Positions 23,499 to 42,659 of a stretch of 43,674 bases of DNA are shown here, piece after piece. Each line of letters opens with the position of its first letter. Positions within the stretch are counted from its first letter, which is position 1. The DNA is from a virus, in IMG/VR virus record IMGVR_UViG_3300045738_000450, positions 1 through 43,674 of that record; one strand, 5' to 3'. The notes under the pieces are model-generated. The model searched no databases, was not told where the DNA came from, and was given only the letters and a program-made list of their open reading frames with translations. The translations under genes were made by a program, and so were the position numbers.

Positions 23499-25487
23499 TT
23501 AGTATATATCTTTCATGTGATCGGTAAACCAGTTGGGGCCGGAATAAGGATCGCCCTGTGAGGATTTCTTATAGTCGTCATCCATAGAGGCAAAGCCTCC
23601 GAAGAACTTATATTCTTGTGGCGTGGGAAGTCTCGCCAGAACGCGGGCGGCCATATTGGACATAATTAGTGCTGAGTACCTGTCTTTTCTCATTTTGCTC
23701 TTTTTGCCAGCCGCAACAATAACTTCTGGAGTGTCCCATCTATCTCTACCGCTTGGGGTTTGGGTCATTTGTATCATGGACAGTTCATCTTTTAGCTCTT
23801 CTATGTCTAGTACACAATTCTCCAATGTGTCAAAAACTCTATCTTTAAGCCCGTCCTCTATTGTAGATAGGCCTAGGGTTACAGGGTCAAAAAATGGGAA
23901 CAAGGTCACTTTGTCTTCAAAGTCTTTTCTTAGTCCATGATTTGCCTCTGCTAGCCAGTCATATTTTGCGAACTGACACATTTCTAATATGTGAAGTCCA
24001 CGCTCGTCGTCTGTGTCTTTCTCTTTGTCCTCGTCAATAACGGGCCAGATCGCAACCTCGTTCTGTTTTATCTTGTCTTTGTCGTGTAGAGACTCCATGA
24101 CAGCAATGCCGCCACCCTGAGCGTCCATCGCTATGTGGATACAGGGGAACAGCCTCATTAAGTCTCTTATCTTTCTGGCGCAATAGGAGTAATAATCCGT
24201 TTCGGACGCATACCCTCTCTTAACCTTATCCTTATGCTCAAACCTGTTGGTAGTCCAGCAGTGTACAATTCTCCTGTGGTCTGGATTAACTTCAAGAACC
24301 ACAATACTAAAGTTGTCCACTTCGGAAGCGGGGTCAACACCAAATATATAGTGTTTGTTCGGATTTCCCATAAGCATGGACTCAAAGTGTATTTCTTTTC
24401 CTTCGCTGTCCTTTAATGTATTATCGTTAGTTATGACGCAGGACTCAATTAGCGACCTCTTGAAAAACCCTTGGCTATCCCTTGTAAAACAAGCGCCATA
24501 TTCCATTTGGTAGATACCGGCGTGAACGGTTGCTTTAGACCGGGCAACCTGAGCGGCGTCCATAAAGCCCTCTGGGAGTAGCTCATAGGGGATTCTTATG
24601 ATAGAGTATTGACGCCAATCAAAATCTTTAGGCACTGCATCGCCCCCAAACACCTCTCTTAATCTTTCGGGTTTTCCTCTACTTTTAATTATCTGCTTCC
24701 ACTTCTTCCAATATGTAGCAAAATGATTAAAATCATAGTAAGCAGTCCCGGAAAGTATGATTTGGTTATCTTTTATGGACATCTCGTTTTCTTCTTTTTC
24801 TTCTATCTCTACTCCAAGCTCTTCTGCTTTTTTCTTGGAGGCCATTTTTCTTACGTTATCTATCGGGTCTGCGCTAACAGCAGCAAAACCGGCTACAACA
24901 TTCTCAAAGATATCACGAGGTATAGATGCAAACTCATCGCTTATGATGTCATTGGCTCGTTGTCCACGTATTTTTTGTCCATCTCCTAGCGGTAAGCATG
25001 TTATGGTACTATCATTAATCCGCATAACACACCTGTCAACATCTCGCCTTGGCCCACTTTCGCTACTGCATATATCCCTGAATATTGGAGCGTTATACCA
25101 TATGGTTTCCATGTACTCAAAAAGAACCTTTGACTGCCTAAAAGCAGCGCCAACTACGACAACCTTTCTTTTTGGCAAAAGCAAGGCTCTCACAAGAGCA
25201 TAAAGAGAGAGCATGAATGACTTCCCAAAACCACGGCTTGCGATAAGCATTGGGAACTTTCTGTTCCACATCTCATAAAGCATCATAGCTTGAGAAGGGA
25301 GAATCTGCACGTTTAGTATGTGTTTGCATAAAAACGAAAAGTACTCTGGCTTTGACATTAGATACGAAAGCCTTAGGTGGTAATCGTCTTCTGTCGTTTT
25401 AAGAAATGACATTGGATTGAAGAGGTTGTCTTCGGAGACATCGAGGTCTAGCCAAGCCTCGTCTATGTTTTTTAGATCCAGAGACAT
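23499..25487 (-). CDS. Terminase large subunit (662 aa)
   Basis: ATP-driven DNA packaging motor with nuclease. The Walker A motif is A-S-R-G-F-G-K-S (83-90), and Walker B is I-I-S-D-E (181-185) followed by F-A-S. The RNase H-like nuclease domain supplies acidic residues in Y-I-F-G-V-D-P-A-S-E (about 375), H-I-A-M-D-A-Q-G-G-G (about 435) and K-M-R-K-D-R-Y-S-A-L (about 610). A charged insertion (KKKAEELGVEIEEKEENEM) lies between the domains. Its start overlaps the stop of the ERCC4 nuclease by one base. Length fits the family. Confidence 0.93.
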   Translation of the reverse strand: MSLDLKNIDEAWLDLDVSEDNLFNPMSFLKTTEDDYHLRLSYLMSKPEYFSFLCKHILNVQILPSQAMMLYEMWNRKFPMLIASRGFGKSFMLSLYALVRALLLPKRKVVVVGAAFRQSKVLFEYMETIWYNAPIFRDICSSESGPRRDVDRCVMRINDSTITCLPLGDGQKIRGQRANDIISDEFASIPRDIFENVVAGFAAVSADPIDNVRKMASKKKAEELGVEIEEKEENEMSIKDNQIILSGTAYYDFNHFATYWKKWKQIIKSRGKPERLREVFGGDAVPKDFDWRQYSIIRIPYELLPEGFMDAAQVARSKATVHAGIYQMEYGACFTRDSQGFFKRSLIESCVITNDNTLKDSEGKEIHFESMLMGNPNKHYIFGVDPASEVDNFSIVVLEVNPDHRRIVHCWTTNRFEHKDKVKRGYASETDYYSYCARKIRDLMRLFPCIHIAMDAQGGGIAVMESLHDKDKIKQNEVAIWPVIDEDKEKDTDDERGLHILEMCQFAKYDWLAEANHGLRKDFEDKVTLFPFFDPVTLGLSTIEDGLKDRVFDTLENCVLDIEELKDELSMIQMTQTPSGRDRWDTPEVIVAAGKKSKMRKDRYSALIMSNMAARVLARLPTPQEYKFFGGFASMDDDYKKSSQGDPYSGPNWFTDHMKDIY

Positions 25488-30670: not shown

Positions 30671-30699
30671 TTGACAAATGACGATAATATATATATACT
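30671..30699 (+). promoter_or_regulatory. Sigma-70 promoter, first rightward gene
   Basis: TTGACA (30671-30676), 17-bp spacer containing ACGATAAT, TATACT (30694-30699). The expected start site falls on the ATG at 30706. Confidence 0.85.
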
Positions 30700-30744
30700 A
30701 AGAGCATGACAAACAACAACAACAACAACAACAAGGAAAACAAA

Positions 30745-30891
30745 ATGTCAAACTTAGATAAACTTATCAATTACTTCATGCTTCGCGGACATAGCTGGAT
30801 TAACAGCGTTAAACTTGCTAAGTCTACATTGACTATCATTGAGAATGGTGATACTCTACGACTAAGAGCATCTAGTACACGCGATGCCTAA
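30745..30891 (+). CDS. Small paralogous protein A1 (48 aa)
   Basis: Unrecognised. ATG 30745 is preceded by AAGGAAAACAAA. Sequence pattern SNLDKLINYFMLRGHSWINS, then V-K-L-A-K-S-T-L, then R-L-R-A. The next gene is a clear tandem paralogue with the same frame of conserved residues. An in-frame ATG at 30706, at the predicted transcription start, would add 13 residues (M-T-N then six more Asn, K-E-N-K). Likely an early host-takeover peptide (inference). Confidence 0.7.
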   Translation: MSNLDKLINYFMLRGHSWINSVKLAKSTLTIIENGDTLRLRASSTRDA

Positions 30892-30922
30892 CAAATAACT
30901 TCACAAAATAGCCGTATTGCTA

Positions 30923-30951
30923 TTGACACAACATCCAATATAGTATATAAT
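30923..30951 (+). promoter_or_regulatory. Sigma-70 promoter
   Basis: TTGACA (30923-30928), 17 bp, TATAAT (30946-30951). The ATG at 30958 is 7 nt after the -10 box. Preceded by ACTTCACAAAATAGCCG, also found before the promoter at 32629. Confidence 0.9.
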
Positions 30952-30996
30952 ACAACCATGACAAACAACAATAACAATACTCGAAAGGTAAACTCA

Positions 30997-31143
30997 ATGT
31001 CAAACTTAGATAAACTTATTAATACTTTTATGAAACGTGGACATAGCTGGTCTGAAAGCGTTCGGCTTGCTAAGAGTACTTTACAGATTTGCGAGAGTGG
31101 TCATACTGTACGACTAAGAGCATTCGTGAGAGTTGACGACTAA
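30997..31143 (+). CDS. Small paralogous protein A2 (48 aa)
   Basis: Tandem paralogue of the protein at 30745: same M-S-N-L-D-K-L-I-N start, R-G-H-S-W, L-A-K-S-T-L and R-L-R-A. ATG 30997 follows CGAAAGGTAAACTCA. An in-frame ATG at 30958 (39 nt upstream, at the transcription start) would add M-T-N-N-N-N-N-T-R-K-V-N-S. Function unknown; duplication with divergence suggests selection. Confidence 0.7.
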   Translation: MSNLDKLINTFMKRGHSWSESVRLAKSTLQICESGHTVRLRAFVRVDD

Positions 31144-31156
31144 GCTATATCGCCGT

Positions 31157-31248
31157 TCAACTGGAGTCGCAAGACTAGGTTTAAGAGACACTGAATGAAC
31201 TACTACTCAACTGGAGTCGAGAGACTAGGTTTAAGAGATACTGAATGA
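31157..31248 (+). repeat. Two copies of 42-bp repeat
   Basis: Two direct copies, 31157-31198 and 31207-31248, beginning TCAACTGGAGTCG and ending ACTGAATGA, with about 93% identity. A related pair with the core TTAAGAG...ACTGAA is at 36416-36492. They lie just downstream of the second gene and upstream of a hairpin element. Function unknown; perhaps 3' end signals. Confidence 0.75.
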
Positions 31249-31254
31249 GTGGCG

Positions 31255-31330
31255 AAAAAAGGCCGGGGCGTTTTTCTCCGTAAGTCCTTTGATAGCAATG
31301 GGTTACAACTACTTTCCCTTTTTTCTATTT
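31255..31330 (+). terminator. Double-hairpin intergenic element, copy 1
   Basis: AAAAAAGGCCGGGGCG then a T5 loop and CTCCG, followed by a second hairpin (GTAAGTCCTTT ... GGTTAC, weak here) and a T-rich tract ACTTTCCCTTTTTTC. A promoter follows at once. Same order as copies at 32200, 36983, 37992 and 43512. Confidence 0.55.
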
Positions 31331-31346
31331 TATGTGGAGATAGGGG

Positions 31347-31375
31347 TTGACAAATGCCGATAATATAAGTATAAT
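31347..31375 (+). promoter_or_regulatory. Sigma-70 promoter with conserved spacer
   Basis: TTGACA (31347-31352), 17-bp spacer with ATGCCGATAAT, TATAAT (31370-31375). ATG at 31382, 7 nt after the -10. Confidence 0.9.
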
Positions 31376-31399
31376 GGGAGCATGACAAGGAAAGACATA

Positions 31400-31519
31400 A
31401 TGAACATCAAAGCATTTCTAAACTACATCAACTATAGCACTGTTTGCCCTAGCAGGATTCATCCTATGCGATGGAATGCCATGCTCATCATGGCTAAGAA
31501 AATGGGATATATTTCCTAA
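31400..31519 (+). CDS. Small hypothetical protein (39 aa)
   Basis: ATG 31400 follows AAGGAAAGACATA; an in-frame ATG at 31382 on the predicted start site would add M-T-R-K-D-I. The product starts N-I-K-A-F-L-N-Y-I-N-Y and is Met-rich with several basic residues. Unrecognised. It stands alone between two promoters. Confidence 0.5.
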   Translation: MNIKAFLNYINYSTVCPSRIHPMRWNAMLIMAKKMGYIS

Positions 31520-31536
31520 TAATGCCCTGATTGGGC

Positions 31537-31565
31537 TTGACAAATTGGTCAACTTAGTATATAAT
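31537..31565 (+). promoter_or_regulatory. Sigma-70 promoter
   Basis: TTGACA (31537-31542), 17 bp ending in CAACTTAGTA, TATAAT (31560-31565). ATG at 31572, 7 nt after the -10. Spacer of the second class (CCAACTTAGT type). Confidence 0.88.
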
Positions 31566-31607
31566 ACAAGCATGAAAAACAAAAACACTTTAACGAAAGA
31601 AAAGAAA

Positions 31608-31940
31608 ATGACTTTTAAGATTCACGAAAACGATTACAATAGAGCTTTAACTCTTTACACTAGACTCCATGAGAATGGTATCGAAGTATGGATGAAGTTA
31701 AACACCAATGACATGAGCGATTGCCAATGGCGATTCGTTGATAGTCCATCACCGCATATCTTCGGTACGATGGCTCACCCACTACACAATGGTGGTGTAG
31801 GTGCTTTGATTAATGACTTGCTCACAGCGTGTTACAATCATGGTATCATGAAGCGTCCCGTTCGCATGGGTACACGTAATCACATGCGTCTATCATGCGA
31901 TGCTAATGGTAAGCAGTGGACTACTGCCAATGGTGGTTGA
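31608..31940 (+). CDS. Hypothetical protein, RNH-x-RLS family (110 aa)
   Basis: ATG 31608 is preceded by CGAAAGAAAAGAAA; an in-frame ATG at 31572 would add 12 residues (M-K-N-K-N-T ...). Unrecognised fold. The C-terminal third (G-G-V-G-A-L-I ... R-N-H-M-R-L-S ... W-T-T-A-N-G-G) is clearly related to the protein at 35380 (G-G-I-G-A-L ... R-N-H-V-R-L-S ... W-T-T-S-N-G-G). So these are diverged paralogues. The conserved W, N and G residues suggest a real small domain. Confidence 0.75.
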   Translation: MTFKIHENDYNRALTLYTRLHENGIEVWMKLNTNDMSDCQWRFVDSPSPHIFGTMAHPLHNGGVGALINDLLTACYNHGIMKRPVRMGTRNHMRLSCDANGKQWTTANGG

Positions 31941-31941
31941 T

Positions 31942-31992
31942 ATGGGTTTACTGTTTGCTGTTACTGTTATCGTGTTGGCTATCTTAGATTAG
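31942..31992 (+). CDS. Possible 16-aa hydrophobic peptide
   Basis: ATG 31942 begins 1 nt after the upstream TGA and encodes M-G-L-L-F-A-V-T-V-I-V-L-A-I-L-D, a perfect membrane-helix composition. There is only a weak GGTGG ribosome site. Other genes nearby encode similar single-helix peptides, which supports it. Low confidence because of length. Confidence 0.3.
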   Translation: MGLLFAVTVIVLAILD

Positions 31993-32001
31993 GAAAACGA
32001 A

Positions 32002-32091
32002 ATGAGCGATGAGTTTATTATGTACGTTGCAGTGCCATTGATACTGTTGATTGCCTCTTACCCATTCAGGGATAGGAGCAGCAGGCAGTAG
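32002..32091 (+). CDS. Small single-helix membrane protein (29 aa)
   Basis: ATG 32002 follows AGGAAAACGAA, the standard ribosome site of this region. Product: short acidic N-terminus (M-S-D-E), hydrophobic stretch FIMYVAVPLILLIASY, then a basic tail (R-D-R-S-S-R-Q). One membrane helix with a positive C-terminus. Function unknown; one of at least seven such peptides in this region. Confidence 0.5.
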   Translation: MSDEFIMYVAVPLILLIASYPFRDRSSRQ

Positions 32092-32190
32092 TCTTACCCT
32101 ATCCAATCCCCTAGTGGGCAGTAGGTGGTGGGGCAGCAGGTGGTGGTCTCACCCTATCCAATCCCCTAGTGGTCGGTAGGCAGTAGGGGC
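32081..32190 (+). repeat. Duplicated 50-bp intergenic repeat
   Basis: Two direct copies, about 32081-32125 and 32133-32190, sharing ACCCTATCCAATCCCCTAGT and GG(C/T)(A/C)GTAGG. A third copy lies at 33344-33402. All stand just before a double-hairpin element. Confidence 0.7.
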
Positions 32191-32199
32191 GGTGCGTAG

Positions 32200-32272
32200 A
32201 AAAAGGCCGGGGCGTTTTTCGCCGTAAGTCCTTTGGTAGCAACGATTTACAACTATTTTGCTTTTTTTGGGG
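32200..32272 (+). terminator. Double-hairpin intergenic element, copy 2
   Basis: AAAAAGGCCGGGGCG, T-loop, CGCCG; then GTAAGTCCTTT ... ATTTAC and a T-rich tract (TATTTTGCTTTTTTT). Followed by ACGCCGATAATATATG, a degenerate copy of the promoter spacer without a good -35. Confidence 0.6.
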
Positions 32273-32378
32273 TTTTGACTGGATTTCGACCACCTAAAAC
32301 GCCGATAATATATGTAGAGAGGGAGAGAATAGACAATAAAAAACATGCAAAAAACTTTACAAAATAACGAAACTGCTC

Positions 32379-32407
32379 TTGACAAAACGTCCAACTTAGT
32401 TTATAAT
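32379..32407 (+). promoter_or_regulatory. Sigma-70 promoter
   Basis: TTGACA (32379-32384), 17 bp with CCAACTTAGT, TATAAT (32402-32407). ATG at 32414, 7 nt after the -10. Confidence 0.88.
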
Positions 32408-32449
32408 ACAGACATGAGAAACAACAACAACACCAACGAAAGCAATGAA

Positions 32450-32617
32450 ATGAAAACCACTAAATCCATTAGTACAACAATCACCTATCGTGAATGGCTC
32501 ATAGCTCGTAATGAGGGACTGACCCGCGCTGATAAGAAACGAGCTGCAAGAGCTTACATCGTAAAAGAAAACGAAATAATGGCGGCTAGAAAAGCTGCAA
32601 AAAACTTCACAAAATAG
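32450..32617 (+). CDS. Small basic helical protein (55 aa)
   Basis: ATG 32450; an in-frame ATG at 32414 on the predicted start site would add 12 residues (M-R-N-N-N-N-T-N-E-S-N-E). Product rich in Arg/Lys/Ala with E-W-L-I-A-R-N-E-G-L-T-R-A-D-K-K-R-A-A-R, a charged amphipathic helix, and ends K-A-A-K-N-F-T-K. It could bind nucleic acid; that is a guess from composition. The end of the gene forms part of the promoter block of the next gene. Confidence 0.6.
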   Translation: MKTTKSISTTITYREWLIARNEGLTRADKKRAARAYIVKENEIMAARKAAKNFTK

Positions 32618-32628
32618 CCGTATTGCTA

Positions 32629-32657
32629 TTGACAAAACGACCAACTTAGTATATAAT
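32629..32657 (+). promoter_or_regulatory. Sigma-70 promoter
   Basis: TTGACA (32629-32634), 17 bp with CCAACTTAGT, TATAAT (32652-32657). ATG at 32664, 7 nt after the -10. Confidence 0.88.
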
Positions 32658-32702
32658 ACAGACATGACAAACAACAATAACACTTCAATGAAAGAAAAGA
32701 AA

Positions 32703-33011
32703 ATGACTTTTACAAAATACAATACAAACGTAAATCACCTTACCACCCATGAAATGGTTGCTAGTAAAATCGAAAACGGTTTGACTAACGAATTGCAAAT
32801 CATTTGTAAGATTGGTAATATCTTACGAGATATGGGTAAGTCCCCTACTCAAGTTAATTACCTTATGAGCGTTGATAGTGATTTCATCACTGACGTTCTA
32901 AGTTGTTACGATAGCGATAACGAGAACCTTCCTCCGTTTGATAACTTCCATCCTCTTAATGCTACTAAGATTAGCCCACGTTGGGCCGATGGTAGTAAGA
33001 GAACCAGTTAG
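32703..33011 (+). CDS. Paralogous protein B1 (102 aa)
   Basis: ATG 32703 follows GAAAGAAAAGAAA; in-frame ATG 32664 would add 13 residues (M-T-N-N-N-N-T-S-M-K-E-K-K). The first 70 residues (MTFTKYNTNVNHLTTHEMVA; I-L-R-D-M-G-K; Q-V-N-Y-L) are about 75% identical to the protein at 33679; the C-terminal 35 residues here are extra. Mostly helical with Q-V-N-Y-L and D-F-I-T-D-V-L, perhaps a small DNA-binding fold, but unrecognised. Confidence 0.7.
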   Translation: MTFTKYNTNVNHLTTHEMVASKIENGLTNELQIICKIGNILRDMGKSPTQVNYLMSVDSDFITDVLSCYDSDNENLPPFDNFHPLNATKISPRWADGSKRTS

Positions 33012-33100
33012 GGTTAAACCCGCAAGCCTTGCCCTAGTCGCAAGCATAGTTTACGGTCTATTCCAAAACCGTTTTCGATACAACTACTTTTTAGAAAGAA
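33011..33100 (+). repeat. GGGTTAAACCC gene-end element, copy A
   Basis: Starts at the stop codon: GGGTTAAACCC, then CGCAAGCCTTGCCC, AGTCGCAAGCATAG, TTTACGG and TATTCCAAAACCG. Three other copies (33888, 35289, 36509) keep these blocks. The 11-bp opening is a perfect palindromic hairpin. Ends just before the ribosome site of the 40-aa gene. Confidence 0.75.
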
Positions 33101-33101
33101 A

Positions 33102-33224
33102 ATGAAAATGAAAAACGAAACTAAGGAAACGCTTGTTGAACTTGCGATTCTCACCAGTGGTGTTCTTGCAGTAATTGTAACTACTATTGTGTTCGGTTGG
33201 ATTCTCGCCAGCTCGGCCATATAA
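33102..33224 (+). CDS. Small single-helix membrane protein (40 aa)
   Basis: Starts at ATG 33102 or 33108 (MKMKNETKET). The hydrophobic segment VELAILTSGVLAVIVTTIV and W-I-L-A form one membrane helix after a charged N-terminus. Preceded by TTTTTAGAAAGAAA and gene-end element A. No own promoter is visible, so it is read through from 32629. Function unknown. Confidence 0.55.
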   Translation: MKMKNETKETLVELAILTSGVLAVIVTTIVFGWILASSAI

Positions 33225-33235
33225 GGAAAACGAAA

Positions 33236-33334
33236 ATGGACTACAACACAGGTTTACAAATCGCTGGCATGGTCGCCGGTGTGACAGGGCTGTTGATGTT
33301 GCTTGACTTGATTCCATATCGACACAATCGGTAA
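33236..33334 (+). CDS. Small single-helix membrane protein (32 aa)
   Basis: ATG 33236 follows AAGGAAAACGAAA. Product M-D-Y-N-T-G-L-Q then IAGMVAGVTGLLMLLDLI and a basic tail (P-Y-R-H-N-R): one helix, positive end likely inside. Lies 11 bp after the previous membrane peptide, so they are co-expressed. Function unknown. Confidence 0.55.
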   Translation: MDYNTGLQIAGMVAGVTGLLMLLDLIPYRHNR

Positions 33335-33343
33335 ATCGTCCAA

Positions 33344-33402
33344 GCAGCCAGTTGGTGGTCTCGCCCGATCCAATCCGCTAGCGGGGGGTAGGCAGTAGGG
33401 GC
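33344..33402 (+). repeat. Third copy of 50-bp intergenic repeat
   Basis: AGCAGCCAGTTGGTGGTCTC, CGATCCAATCCGCTAG, GGTAGGCAGTAGGGGC: about 80% like 32133-32190. Directly precedes a double-hairpin element, as there. Confidence 0.65.
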
Positions 33403-33403
33403 A

Positions 33404-33457
33404 GAAAAAGGCCCCGGCGTTTTTCGTCGTAAACCCTTACTATCAAAGGACTTAGGG
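33404..33457 (+). terminator. Double-hairpin intergenic element, copy 3
   Basis: AAAAAGGCCCCGGCG, T-loop, CGTCG; second hairpin AAACCCTTAC ... AAAGGACTTAGG. No TTGACA promoter follows; instead the 185-bp upstream block begins. Confidence 0.55.
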
Positions 33458-33460
33458 GCT

Positions 33461-33645
33461 GCCAAACTGACATGACATTATTGCAGCAACTGCCAATCTG
33501 ACAGGCGACAAACCATCACTATGCCAAACCAAAATAAACTTTCTGAGAAATTTTAAGTCGTTACCATACAAGGACTTACGATCGGTTCAAAGACAATTCT
33601 GGGCTGTTTGGCCTGAACGGCACAGTATTCGCACTATATAGTACT
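33461..33645 (+). repeat. 185-bp conserved upstream block, copy 1
   Basis: No gene lies in 33335-33678. This block is about 85% identical to 36115-36302 and partly to 34831-34964: GCCAAACTGACATG, CCAAAATAAACTTTCTGAGA, AATTTTAAGTCGTTAC, TTTGGCCTGA and, at the end, GCACTATATA. It ends at the ATG 33646. It lacks TTGACA; TATATA near 33635-33640 may be the -10 of a different promoter class. Confidence 0.7.
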
Positions 33646-33678
33646 ATGACAAACAATAACACTAACGAAAGAAACAAA

Positions 33679-33894
33679 ATGACTTTTACAAAATACAATA
33701 CAAACGTAAATCACTTAACAACTCACGAAATAGTTGCTAGTAAAATCAAAAAGGGTTTGACTAATGAGCTTCGCATCATTTGTGAGATCGGTACGATTTT
33801 ACGAGATATGGGTAAGAACCATACTCAAGTAAACTACCTACTGAATGTTGATGAAGATTTTATCTCTGACGTGCTTGGTTGTTACAAGGGTTAA
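33679..33894 (+). CDS. Paralogous protein B2 (71 aa)
   Basis: Shorter paralogue of the protein at 32703: same M-T-F-T-K-Y-N-T-N-V-N-H-L-T-T-H-E start, I-L-R-D-M-G-K and T-Q-V-N-Y-L, ending G-C-Y-K-G. ATG 33679 follows CGAAAGAAACAAA; in-frame ATG 33646 would add M-T-N-N-N-T-N-E-R-N-K. It is expressed from the 185-bp block, so the two paralogues have different upstream control. Confidence 0.7.
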   Translation: MTFTKYNTNVNHLTTHEIVASKIKKGLTNELRIICEIGTILRDMGKNHTQVNYLLNVDEDFISDVLGCYKG

Positions 33895-33945: not shown

Positions 33946-34113
33946 CTTGAAGTTGAACAAGTAAACAACGACACTTGAAGTTGAACAAGTAAACAACGAC
34001 ACTTGAAGTTGAACAAGTAAACAACGACACTTGAAGTTGAACAAGTAAACAACGACACTTGAAGTTGAACAAGTAAACAACGACACTTGAAGCCTAACAA
34101 GTAAACAATGGCA
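33946..34113 (+). repeat. 28-bp tandem repeat array (six units)
   Basis: Unit: CTTGAAGTTGAACA followed by AGTAAACAACGACA. Five identical head-to-tail copies start at 33946, 33974, 34002, 34030 and 34058; a degenerate sixth starts at 34086 (CTTGAAGCCTAACAAG). No spacers, so not CRISPR. Each unit contains CTTG...CAAG half-sites (CTTGaagttgaaCAAG), as in an iteron or multi-site operator. Confidence 0.9.
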
Positions 34114-37228: not shown

Positions 37229-37242
37229 GTAAGTAACAACAA

Positions 37243-37285
37243 AGGGGAAAAGCTCCTCGACAACTGAGGTCGCCCTAACTTTTTT
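37243..37285 (+). promoter_or_regulatory. Possible attenuator in 5' leader
   Basis: AGGG (37243) pairs with CCCT (37273) around an inner CCTC/GAGG hairpin (37255-37269), followed by six T (37280-37285) and then AAGGACAACGAAATG. This looks like a weak intrinsic terminator between promoter and gene. No known riboswitch was recognised. Confidence 0.35.
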
Positions 37286-37582: not shown

Positions 37583-37975
37583 CAACACAATACAAGCGAG
37601 GAATCGTTCCAGTCCCTGCTAGTGACAGCAGTAACCTTGGACATGTCAGTGTTCTGGTCTGCCTAGTCAAACTGTTCTGGATTCCGAACTGCTAGTACCG
37701 AAGCGACTAGCTCTACTGACCAGAGGCATCTGGTAACCAGTAGGTGAGAGAGGGGAATGATCGCCCCACTCAGCTTCAACCACACTCCTCCTATAGCCGA
37801 TGGAAGTCTAAAGCGGTGCTGGACGTAGGCCAGTATGGAGGATATTTTGGGCTTGATTTTGGTATCGACTCACTGTAAAGCGTGGAAGCGCCCAGTAGAG
37901 CACGAGGGTTCGATTCCCTCCGAGTCCACTTGCGGCGTCCCTCCTCATCCAGCCGGATAGATATGCCACAACAGT
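37583..37975 (+). ncRNA. Candidate structured noncoding RNA 2 with tRNA-like T arm
   Basis: No gene over about 550 bp (37583-38135). Strong hairpins: CTACTGACCAG ... CTGG ... CCAGTAG (about 37714-37743), GGGG ... CCCC near 37755, and CTGCT ... AGCAG near 37617. At the 3' end GAGGG-TTCGATT-CCCTC is a perfect T arm, preceded by CAGTAGAGCA and flanked by GTGGA/TCCAC. The anticodon arm is absent, so no full tRNA can be drawn. The flank CAGCCAGCACGGCACG and the double hairpin after it match those behind noncoding RNA 1. Confidence 0.45.
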
Positions 37976-38080: not shown

Positions 38081-38109
38081 TTGACAAATGTGTCGATATA
38101 ATATATAAT
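38081..38109 (+). promoter_or_regulatory. Sigma-70 promoter
   Basis: TTGACA (38081-38086), 17 bp, TATAAT (38104-38109). An ATG lies at 38116, again 7 nt after the -10. Confidence 0.88.
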
Positions 38110-38115
38110 GGAGGT

Positions 38116-38139
38116 ATGTTAAACGCGAAAGGAAAATGA
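38116..38139 (+). CDS. Possible 7-codon leader peptide at transcription start
   Basis: ATG 38116 at the predicted start site encodes M-L-N-A-K-G-K and stops with TGA overlapping the next ATG (ATGA at 38136). In seven other genes the corresponding ATG is in frame with the gene; here it makes a coupled upstream reading frame instead. Confidence 0.3.
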   Translation: MLNAKGK

Positions 38140-38327
38140 AAATGAACAGCCACTTTGAGGACTTATTCCCGAAAAGGAATGTAACTGTCTCCCACGGGCC
38201 GAATGGCCTAATTCAAATTGAGGGCGGCAAGCGTACAATCTACGTGAATTCAAACGGCCTATTTGATAGGTGCGGCACGAAAATAAACTTAACAGAGGCT
38301 ATGAAGTCTCTAGACTTGGAGAAATGA
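38136..38327 (+). CDS. Hypothetical protein (63 aa)
   Basis: Starts at ATG 38136 or, with better spacing to GAAAGGA, at 38142. Pattern of short strands: NGLIQIEGGKRTIYVNSNGL. Unrecognised. Overlaps the next gene region by ATGA at 38324, so the pair is coupled. Confidence 0.6.
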   Translation: MKMNSHFEDLFPKRNVTVSHGPNGLIQIEGGKRTIYVNSNGLFDRCGTKINLTEAMKSLDLEK

Positions 38328-41029: not shown

Positions 41030-41291
41030 ATATCGGTTGGGTAGCTCCCAGCCGGTAGGAAGGTGGCCGAATGCCCAAGCTAGACTGAGGGGGTAAGGCA
41101 CACGGACTAAGGAGTATGCCCGAATGGGTGAGGCTTTAGTCGGTGGTACAAAGTAGGGAACGCTCCCGCAAGGGGGTAGACATATCAGTCCCTGAAACGT
41201 TGGTGGTGATACATAATTCCACCCCTTCCACAATACAGAAGACCGGCGAGTCGCTGCTAAACCGATGCAGTCGGCCGCCGGTTTCTTTTTT
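41030..41291 (+). ncRNA. Candidate structured noncoding RNA 3, group-I-intron-like segments
   Basis: A 460-bp gene-free stretch (40943-41406). TACAATATATAT near 41022-41033 may be a -10. Hairpin CGGTTGGG/CCCAGCCG opens the RNA. GGAAGGTGG (41058) pairs with CCACCCCTTCC (41219), closing a multi-branched domain. Inside it, CACGGACTAAGG and GACATATCAGTCCC resemble the group I intron R and S segments, with GGACT/AGTCC as P7; CTCCC/GGGGG and GCCC/GGGT hairpins also form. No exon genes were recognised, so it may be a free-standing RNA. It ends in a clear terminator. Confidence 0.5.
41242..41291 (+). terminator. Rho-independent terminator of noncoding RNA 3
   Basis: ACCGGCG (41242-41248) pairs with CGCCGGT (41276-41282), inner CTGC/GCAG, followed by TTTCTTTTTT. 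This is the clearest intrinsic terminator on the plus strand and marks a transcript without a protein. Confidence 0.8.
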
Positions 41292-41864: not shown

Positions 41865-42659
41865 ATGTTAAAGTATTCACCAGCTAACGCGAAAACAGAA
41901 GCACTAAAAGAGGTTGACGAACTCAAGCCGTTTCTTGCCGCGATCCATGAGCAGGGAATCCCACACCGCAAAATCTACTCTCTTGATCTACTGTCCGGTT
42001 ACAGTTGCCCGTCTGCAAAAGCCTGCTTGTCGAAAGCTGTTGTAGATGAAAACGGCAAACGTCATATTGAGGATGGTAAGGACAACGAGTTTCGTTGTTT
42101 CTCTGCTAGTCAAGAAGTCCAGTATACCAACGTCTACAATCTACGCAAGCACAATTTTGATACGCTGCGCGGGTTACACTTGAACGATATGATTCACGAA
42201 TTGAATCAGGCCATGCCGGAAGATTTGGGCATCTGTCGGATTCATGTTGCTGGCGATTTCTTCAATTCGGATTATATGTTCGCTTGGATTAACATGGCGA
42301 TGATGCACCCTGATAGATTGTTCTATGCTTATACCAAGTCACTCAAATACTGGTTGCAGCATATAGAGTGGATTGAGAAGTTGGATAACTTTGTCTTGAC
42401 CGCTAGTTATGGTGGCAGGGACGATGATCTAATTTTCAAACACGGATTGCGGCATTGTAATGTTATCGGATCAGAGGCAGAAACGCACTTACCGATAGAC
42501 CACGACGATAGCCATGCAGCTAGACCGTCGCAACGTCACAATTCATTTTCCTTGCTGATTCATGGCACACAACCAAAGGGAAGCAAGGCGGCGGAAGCGT
42601 TGAAGCTACTCAAGAAAAACAACGTGCGACATTCCTACAATCGAAAGTCAACAGTATGA
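41865..42659 (+). CDS. GP88-family protein (264 aa)
   Basis: ATG 41865 follows CGAAAGGTAGCACA. Recognisable as the phage 'gene product 88' family: I-Y-S-L-D-L-L-S-G-Y-S-C-P-S-A-K-A-C (38-54), F-R-C-F-S-A-S (77-82), C-R-I-H-V-A-G-D-F-F (124-133) and F-Y-A-Y-T-K-S (153-159). Conserved Cys, His and Asp residues suggest a metal or cofactor site. The activity of this family is not known. Largest gene of the rightward region, with its own promoter. Confidence 0.8.
   Translation: MLKYSPANAKTEALKEVDELKPFLAAIHEQGIPHRKIYSLDLLSGYSCPSAKACLSKAVVDENGKRHIEDGKDNEFRCFSASQEVQYTNVYNLRKHNFDTLRGLHLNDMIHELNQAMPEDLGICRIHVAGDFFNSDYMFAWINMAMMHPDRLFYAYTKSLKYWLQHIEWIEKLDNFVLTASYGGRDDDLIFKHGLRHCNVIGSEAETHLPIDHDDSHAARPSQRHNSFSLLIHGTQPKGSKAAEALKLLKKNNVRHSYNRKSTV

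Follow-up and report, generated by a model that had tools for sequence, protein, structure and literature searches.

In-frame AUG codons at the predicted transcription starts of early genes in a clade of uncultivated phages

The window analyzed here is an IMG/VR virus contig of 43,674 bp (IMGVR_UViG_3300045738_000450). Its late and structural genes lie on the minus strand, including a terminase (23499-25487) that matches TerL profiles, and a series of small early genes starts at approximately 30.7 kb on the plus strand. Seven of these early genes carry an ATG a short distance upstream of, and in frame with, a second ATG that follows a Shine-Dalgarno (SD) type sequence; at six of them the A of the upstream ATG is the predicted transcription start (+1). 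An earlier note on this DNA had reported the pattern, and the observation is real and extends well beyond the window.

The first six loci share a single geometry, consisting of TTGACA, a 17-bp spacer, TATAAT (TATACT in the first), six nucleotides (nt), and the ATG. The first locus (30671..30744) has TTGACA at 30671, TATACT at 30694 and the +1 AUG at 30706, which opens a 39-nt leader rich in C and A (CA-rich; MTNNNNNNNKENK) that runs to an SD-led ATG at 30745, with an open reading frame (ORF) to 30891. A paralogue of this gene follows at 30923..30996, with TTGACA at 30923, TATAAT at 30946, the +1 AUG at 30958, a 39-nt leader, and an SD-led ATG at 30997 (ORF to 31143). The third locus (31347..31399; TTGACA 31347, TATAAT 31370) has its +1 AUG at 31382 and the shortest leader, 18 nt with the SD AAGGA, ahead of the ATG at 31400 (ORF to 31519). 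Leaders of 36 nt are found at 31537..31607 (TTGACA 31537, TATAAT 31560, +1 AUG 31572, second ATG 31608, ORF to 31940) and at 32379..32449 (TTGACA 32379, TATAAT 32402, +1 AUG 32414, second ATG 32450, ORF to 32617). The sixth locus (32629..32702; TTGACA 32629, TATAAT 32652) has its +1 AUG at 32664 and a 39-nt leader to the ATG at 32703 (ORF to 33011), with an additional in-frame ATG at 32688. At the seventh (33646..33678) a leader-like ATG at 33646 runs 33 nt in frame to the ATG at 33679 (ORF to 33894); all seven lie on the plus strand.

The seven positions, the leader lengths (39, 39, 18, 36, 36, 39 and 33 nt) and the unbroken frames given previously were all correct. Placement of the ATG at a transcription start holds for the six loci with a strong promoter and fails at 33646, where a recognizable -35/-10 is absent; the gene is paralogous to that at 32664 and looks like its decayed duplicate. 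The ribosome site before the second ATG is good in the first three loci and weak (GAAAG-type) in the others. One out-of-frame case with a +1 ATG had been overlooked, an AUG at 38116 at the usual offset from a plus-strand TTGACA-N17-TATAAT at 38081 (locus 38081..38139). The odds of about 1 in 2000 cited for chance agreement had counted the paralogues 30706/30958 and 32664/33646 as independent, and data from outside the window make the case far stronger.

Homologues of the window genes were found on related contigs, designated here by L numbers. Contig L001 has five +1 ATGs, all in frame, and one of its proteins is closely homologous to that of the 32664 gene (L001:9994; 36-nt leader, in frame). 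Homologues of the 31572 gene (L001/L516, L421/L490 and L451) all have an in-frame +1 AUG, and those of the 31382 gene in L487, L500, L501, L509 and L515 have AUA, AUC or GUA at +1. Viral contigs were also scanned for TATAAT followed, at any distance from 1 to 16 nt, by ATGANAAACAAYAA. Distinct hits with at most one mismatch in the -35 numbered 24 at gap 6, six at gap 7 and one at gap 14, and this dominance of a single gap ties the ATG to the transcription start. Among CA-rich loci with a +1 ATG and an SD-led ATG downstream, 64 of 68 were in frame, or 35 of 39 when counted by unrelated protein family.

Frame-breaking indels in the leaders of relatives, which by the earlier note would refute its interpretation, were sought in a family with the motif H[DN]VRV..., which was searched by protein alone and not by leader, and the interpretation withstood this test. 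All 13 loci recovered have TTGACA-N17-TATAAT (0-1 mismatch), six nt, the ATG, and an in-frame leader, although the leader takes five different lengths (36, 39, 42, 51 or 54 nt) and the 17-nt promoter spacers have diverged despite the kept geometry.

A census was made of the early regions, up to 20 kb each, of 36 related records and the window, yielding 304 distinct strong early-strand promoters as judged by consensus. These records were mostly recruited through the leader pattern and many rows are related, a dependence on kinship that counting by protein family only reduces. Of the 304 promoters, 90 had an ATG six nt after the -10 (offset 6), compared with 0-7 at each other offset. A second ATG shared the frame of the +1 ATG in 71 of the 90 (62 with an SD and 9 with a weak SD); 11 had the +1 ATG alone, and eight gave short readings, some preceding RNA genes. 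AUA occupied the same +1 position in 96 non-ATG promoters, often with the same type of leader. An unbroken frame from +1 into the SD-led gene was found for 63 of 66 AUG leaders but only 15 of 76 AUA leaders (Fisher p = 1e-21), the SD-led ATGs of the latter being spread 24:17:35 over the three frames. Counted per protein family, with families containing both states set aside, the values were 30:3 for AUG (binomial p = 8e-12 for 30 of 33) and 8:34 for AUA (p = 2e-10 for the contrast between the two). The frame is thus constrained only where +1 is a start codon, as expected if ribosomes start there. Furthermore, in records selected through their terminase only, and so without bias from the leader, a +1 ATG was present at 9 of 85 promoters, offset 6 alone stood out, and all four +1 ATGs with a clear SD-led ATG were open and in frame.

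A pyrimidine at -1 was present in 65 of 66 AUG promoters, 74 of 76 AUA promoters and 30 of 76 of the rest. It was considered as a signature of leaderless genes and rejected, since it belongs to a YAUR initiator common to AUA promoters. In approximately one third of the clade's early promoters a -1 pyrimidine is followed by a common initial transcribed sequence, AUA (e.g. L495, L497 and L506).

The prevalence of AUA bears on an explanation confined to transcription, in which the AUG originated as a functionless variant of AUA; ribosomes would start at it, out-of-frame AUGs, being harmful, having been removed and in-frame ones tolerated. AUA is indeed a frequent counterpart of AUG, sharing its promoter and initiator, several protein families include both AUG and AUA members, and several switch among AUA, GUA and AUG. 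However, AUG outnumbers AUA 63:15 in open leaders, yet the G:A ratio at +3 after GU is 2:18, and although this baseline is small and rough, the excess suggests positive use beyond purging. AUG leaders are also richer in C and A than AUA leaders (0.86 vs 0.71, p = 4e-12), the AUG is retained in all 13 orthologues described above, and some genes depend on it. Purging alone is therefore considered unlikely. Low RNA structure was examined as a further speciality of AUG leaders and rejected, AUA leaders being equally unstructured (p = 0.79).

The genes that depend on the +1 AUG encode a HAD-like protein in L486 and L492, which has the motif KAFVFDFDDTLA and matches Pfam HAD weakly, and a protein of 49-50 amino acids in L496 and L497; for both, this AUG is the only plausible start. 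In all four contigs, reading back from it in frame reaches a stop before any ATG, GTG or TTG, and the front part of the gene has no SD-led start. Codon-position differences between L496 and L497 (6:6:24) fall mostly in third positions, indicating that the frame is coding from its first codon on. These four genes, as read from their sequences, would imply translation without an SD. Together with the frame tests they support the leaderless translation suggested earlier; two protein forms per gene, also suggested, would be a likely consequence of two in-frame starts.

Could the +1 AUG be the sole real start throughout, as in ordinary leaderless genes, with the second ATG incidental? Leaderless genes with perfect promoters are common among the IMG/VR hits; on diverse contigs (L082-L201), consensus sigma-70 promoters with a +1 ATG mostly open long reading frames, and ordinary leaderless genes seem, from these predictions, to be common in phages. 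In the genes considered here, though, the second ATG has an SD centered 9-12 nt upstream and AUA-type homologues must start at it. The second start is therefore taken to be real, and the sole-start explanation is improbable.

The leaders would add to each protein an N-terminal tail, which the earlier note described as asparagine-rich. Leaders are 59% A and 22% C, and the tails (N 38%, T 22%, K 13%) have a composition common across many unrelated proteins, consistent with a tail that functions as protein, in solubility, targeting or binding, with the SD start giving a tail-less isoform. The substitutions do not fit this proposal. By codon position they are distributed 33:42:47 in the leader, with no third-position bias, versus 44:33:75 in the gene body, and 64 of 79 leader codon changes are non-synonymous (15 synonymous). 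The ratio AAC:AAT is 191:38 in leaders, or 134:38 after excluding the codon fixed by the search pattern, versus 135:116 in bodies, and homologues with AUA or GUA leaders are entirely without the tail. The AAC preference, the unrestrained amino-acid changes and the CA-richness of AUG leaders point to a tail that is a by-product of a CA-rich RNA signal, its own sequence not being conserved. A tail that functions as protein is considered improbable.

Chance, or the copying of one promoter-leader cassette, is scarcely credible. Several window copies are paralogous, as copying would predict, yet the pattern spans dozens of unrelated families with leaders of 18-54 nt, and the 13 orthologues and the frame contrast between AUG and AUA contradict both. 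Trinucleotide slippage was considered and rejected, because length changes are not confined to the triplet repeat. Many leaders are without AAC repeats; MTQSNTFLKGFA, MLNETKNERENE and MTRKDI, for example, lack the triplet repeat and are still a multiple of three in length, so slippage alone is insufficient.

The explanation judged probable, with good though not complete confidence, is that these early mRNAs are double-entry messages, in which initiation at a 5'-terminal AUG (leaderless) and SD-led initiation would share one frame as an expression device acting at the level of RNA. The geometry of the +1 AUG, its conservation, the restriction of the frame to AUG leaders and the genes with that sole start can be read from the sequences themselves. 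Transcription from the clade's sigma-70-type promoters would begin with the A of a fixed -1Y/+1A-U-R initiator, and in the subset with G at +3 the mRNA would begin with AUG. Ribosomes would bind this 5'-terminal AUG in the manner of leaderless mRNAs, the CA-rich tract that immediately follows being an aid, and would also bind the SD-led AUG 18-54 nt further on. As the leader is an unbroken frame of 3n nt, both routes would give the same protein, with or without a tail of 6-18 residues rich in Thr, Asn and Lys. Selection would then act on the RNA (the 5' AUG, the CA-rich sequence and the frame) and not on the tail sequence. We infer transcription from this A, initiation at both AUGs, and a benefit in the form of more, or more robust, early translation.

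Several points weigh against the double-entry explanation. The +1 position is itself predicted from promoter geometry. The 30% share of promoters with a +1 AUG is inflated by leader-based recruitment, the terminase-selected set giving approximately 11%, and family-level counts lessen but do not abolish the dependence among census rows. Out-of-frame exceptions exist, namely window position 38116, where the ATG opens a seven-codon reading that ends at TGA 38137-38139 and is out of frame with the gene at 38136-38327, and L500 (MTNNTNTRREWR), where the SD-led ATG is out of frame. In addition, several E. coli mRNAs with 5'-terminal upstream AUGs (5'-uAUGs) yield little translation from them (PMC4965119), and little protein may come from the +1 AUG in this clade.

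The window-type terminase was present in 41 of 50 records tested (47-87% identity; at least 51% in all but one, a fragment), and wherever both were seen, leader and terminase lay on opposite strands, the leader being on the early side. Terminase kinship and early-side placement indicate that the pattern belongs to one large clade of uncultivated phages. No isolate relatives were found in INPHARED by DNA or by major-capsid or portal candidates, and terminase matches there reached only approximately 26%. When GTDB genomes were scanned for the leader, 19 hits were obtained, and none combined a proper -35 with an SD-led in-frame start; a terminase search covering 398 genomes from the Photorhabdus phylum and 380 from the Saccharibacteria phylum gave two weak matches only and no host.

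Other features of the window were recorded. A domain search gave no convincing known domains in the early genes, and the protein at 41865-42659 carries the Pfam Gp88 domain (PF17338, E 3e-34). At a further strong promoter, 39811, an ATG-TAA stands at offset 5, not in frame with a gene. A repeated element of ~48-50 nt, CAACTGGAGTCG...GACTAGGTTTAAGAG, occurs at 31154-31252, at L489:11416 and in three copies in L503, forming tandem copies within the clade's early regions; it looks like a structured RNA or a binding site. A small promoter-driven hairpin element, AGCTCCTC-GACAACT-GAGGTCGCCC, is found at 37236-37285, L488:10038 and L489:12995, and with compensated changes in its stem (CCTC/GAGG vs CCCC/GGGG) is probably a structured RNA. 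A tandem repeat at 33946-34108 comprises 5.8 copies (97% match) of the 28-bp unit CTTGAAGTTGAACAAGTAAACAACGACA, pieces resembling which occur in L001, L489 and L510. The manA RNA motif (RF01745) matched full-length but sub-threshold at 41034-41233 (26 bits vs gathering 55), and a sub-threshold match to the transfer-messenger RNA model at 37849-37931 (38.9 bits, gathering 47) in one scan was not reproduced in a second.

The clade pattern is an in-frame variant of known SD-led mRNAs with a 5'-terminal AUG. In E. coli an AUG stands at the very 5' end of 115 of 3,456 transcripts (Beck, Fleming and Janssen 2016, PMC4965119); such AUGs on SD-led mRNAs bind 70S ribosomes and support translation, some being strongly translated and some affecting the downstream gene (PMC4965119). 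The two systems share an SD-led start preceded by an AUG that lies no more than 3 nt from the 5' end, both of which can bind ribosomes in E. coli, and on predicted transcripts the 62 census cases with an SD and the 9 with a weak SD have this arrangement. The 13 E. coli cases tested, however, were picked out of frame, and in-frame, longer-isoform cases were set aside (PMC4965119). Here the in-frame type is the rule, in dozens of phage families with CA-rich leaders and AUA controls; with 63 of 66 leaders in frame and open, not leading into out-of-frame small ORFs as in the set of Beck et al., this is a variant and not the bicistronic type. Similarities to leaderless mRNAs (lambda cI; mycobacteria; PMC9031893) include a start at the predicted 5' end, CA-rich sequence downstream and, in some genes, no other start, but most genes here also retain an SD-led in-frame start. 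CA repeats downstream of the start raise both leaderless and leadered translation (PMC9031893). In Shigella virF (PMC5101355), one gene is likewise reported to give two protein forms, one of them from a leaderless mRNA; there the leaderless mRNA gives the shorter form, while here a leaderless start on the same mRNA would give the longer. In the open-access literature, no account of a systematic in-frame version from phages was found.

The +1 AUG may serve to raise yield, or to allow initiation where the 30S route is compromised. A stronger proposal, offered tentatively and thought doubtful, is that a 5'-terminal in-frame AUG paired with an SD start has become standard equipment of the clade's early genes, the leaderless (70S, initiation-factor-sparing) route keeping up the synthesis of early proteins if infection limits canonical 30S initiation or exposes it to attack. 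For annotation, gene callers pick the wrong N-terminus, or just one, for +1-AUG genes. The distinction between functional and accidental 5'-terminal AUGs on SD-led mRNAs has so far depended on a few E. coli reporters. In this clade AUG cases occur naturally by the dozen, and AUA leaders on similar promoters match them, a sequence record indicating that selection favors the in-frame 5' AUG; what leaderless initiation contributes to early expression in phages becomes directly testable.

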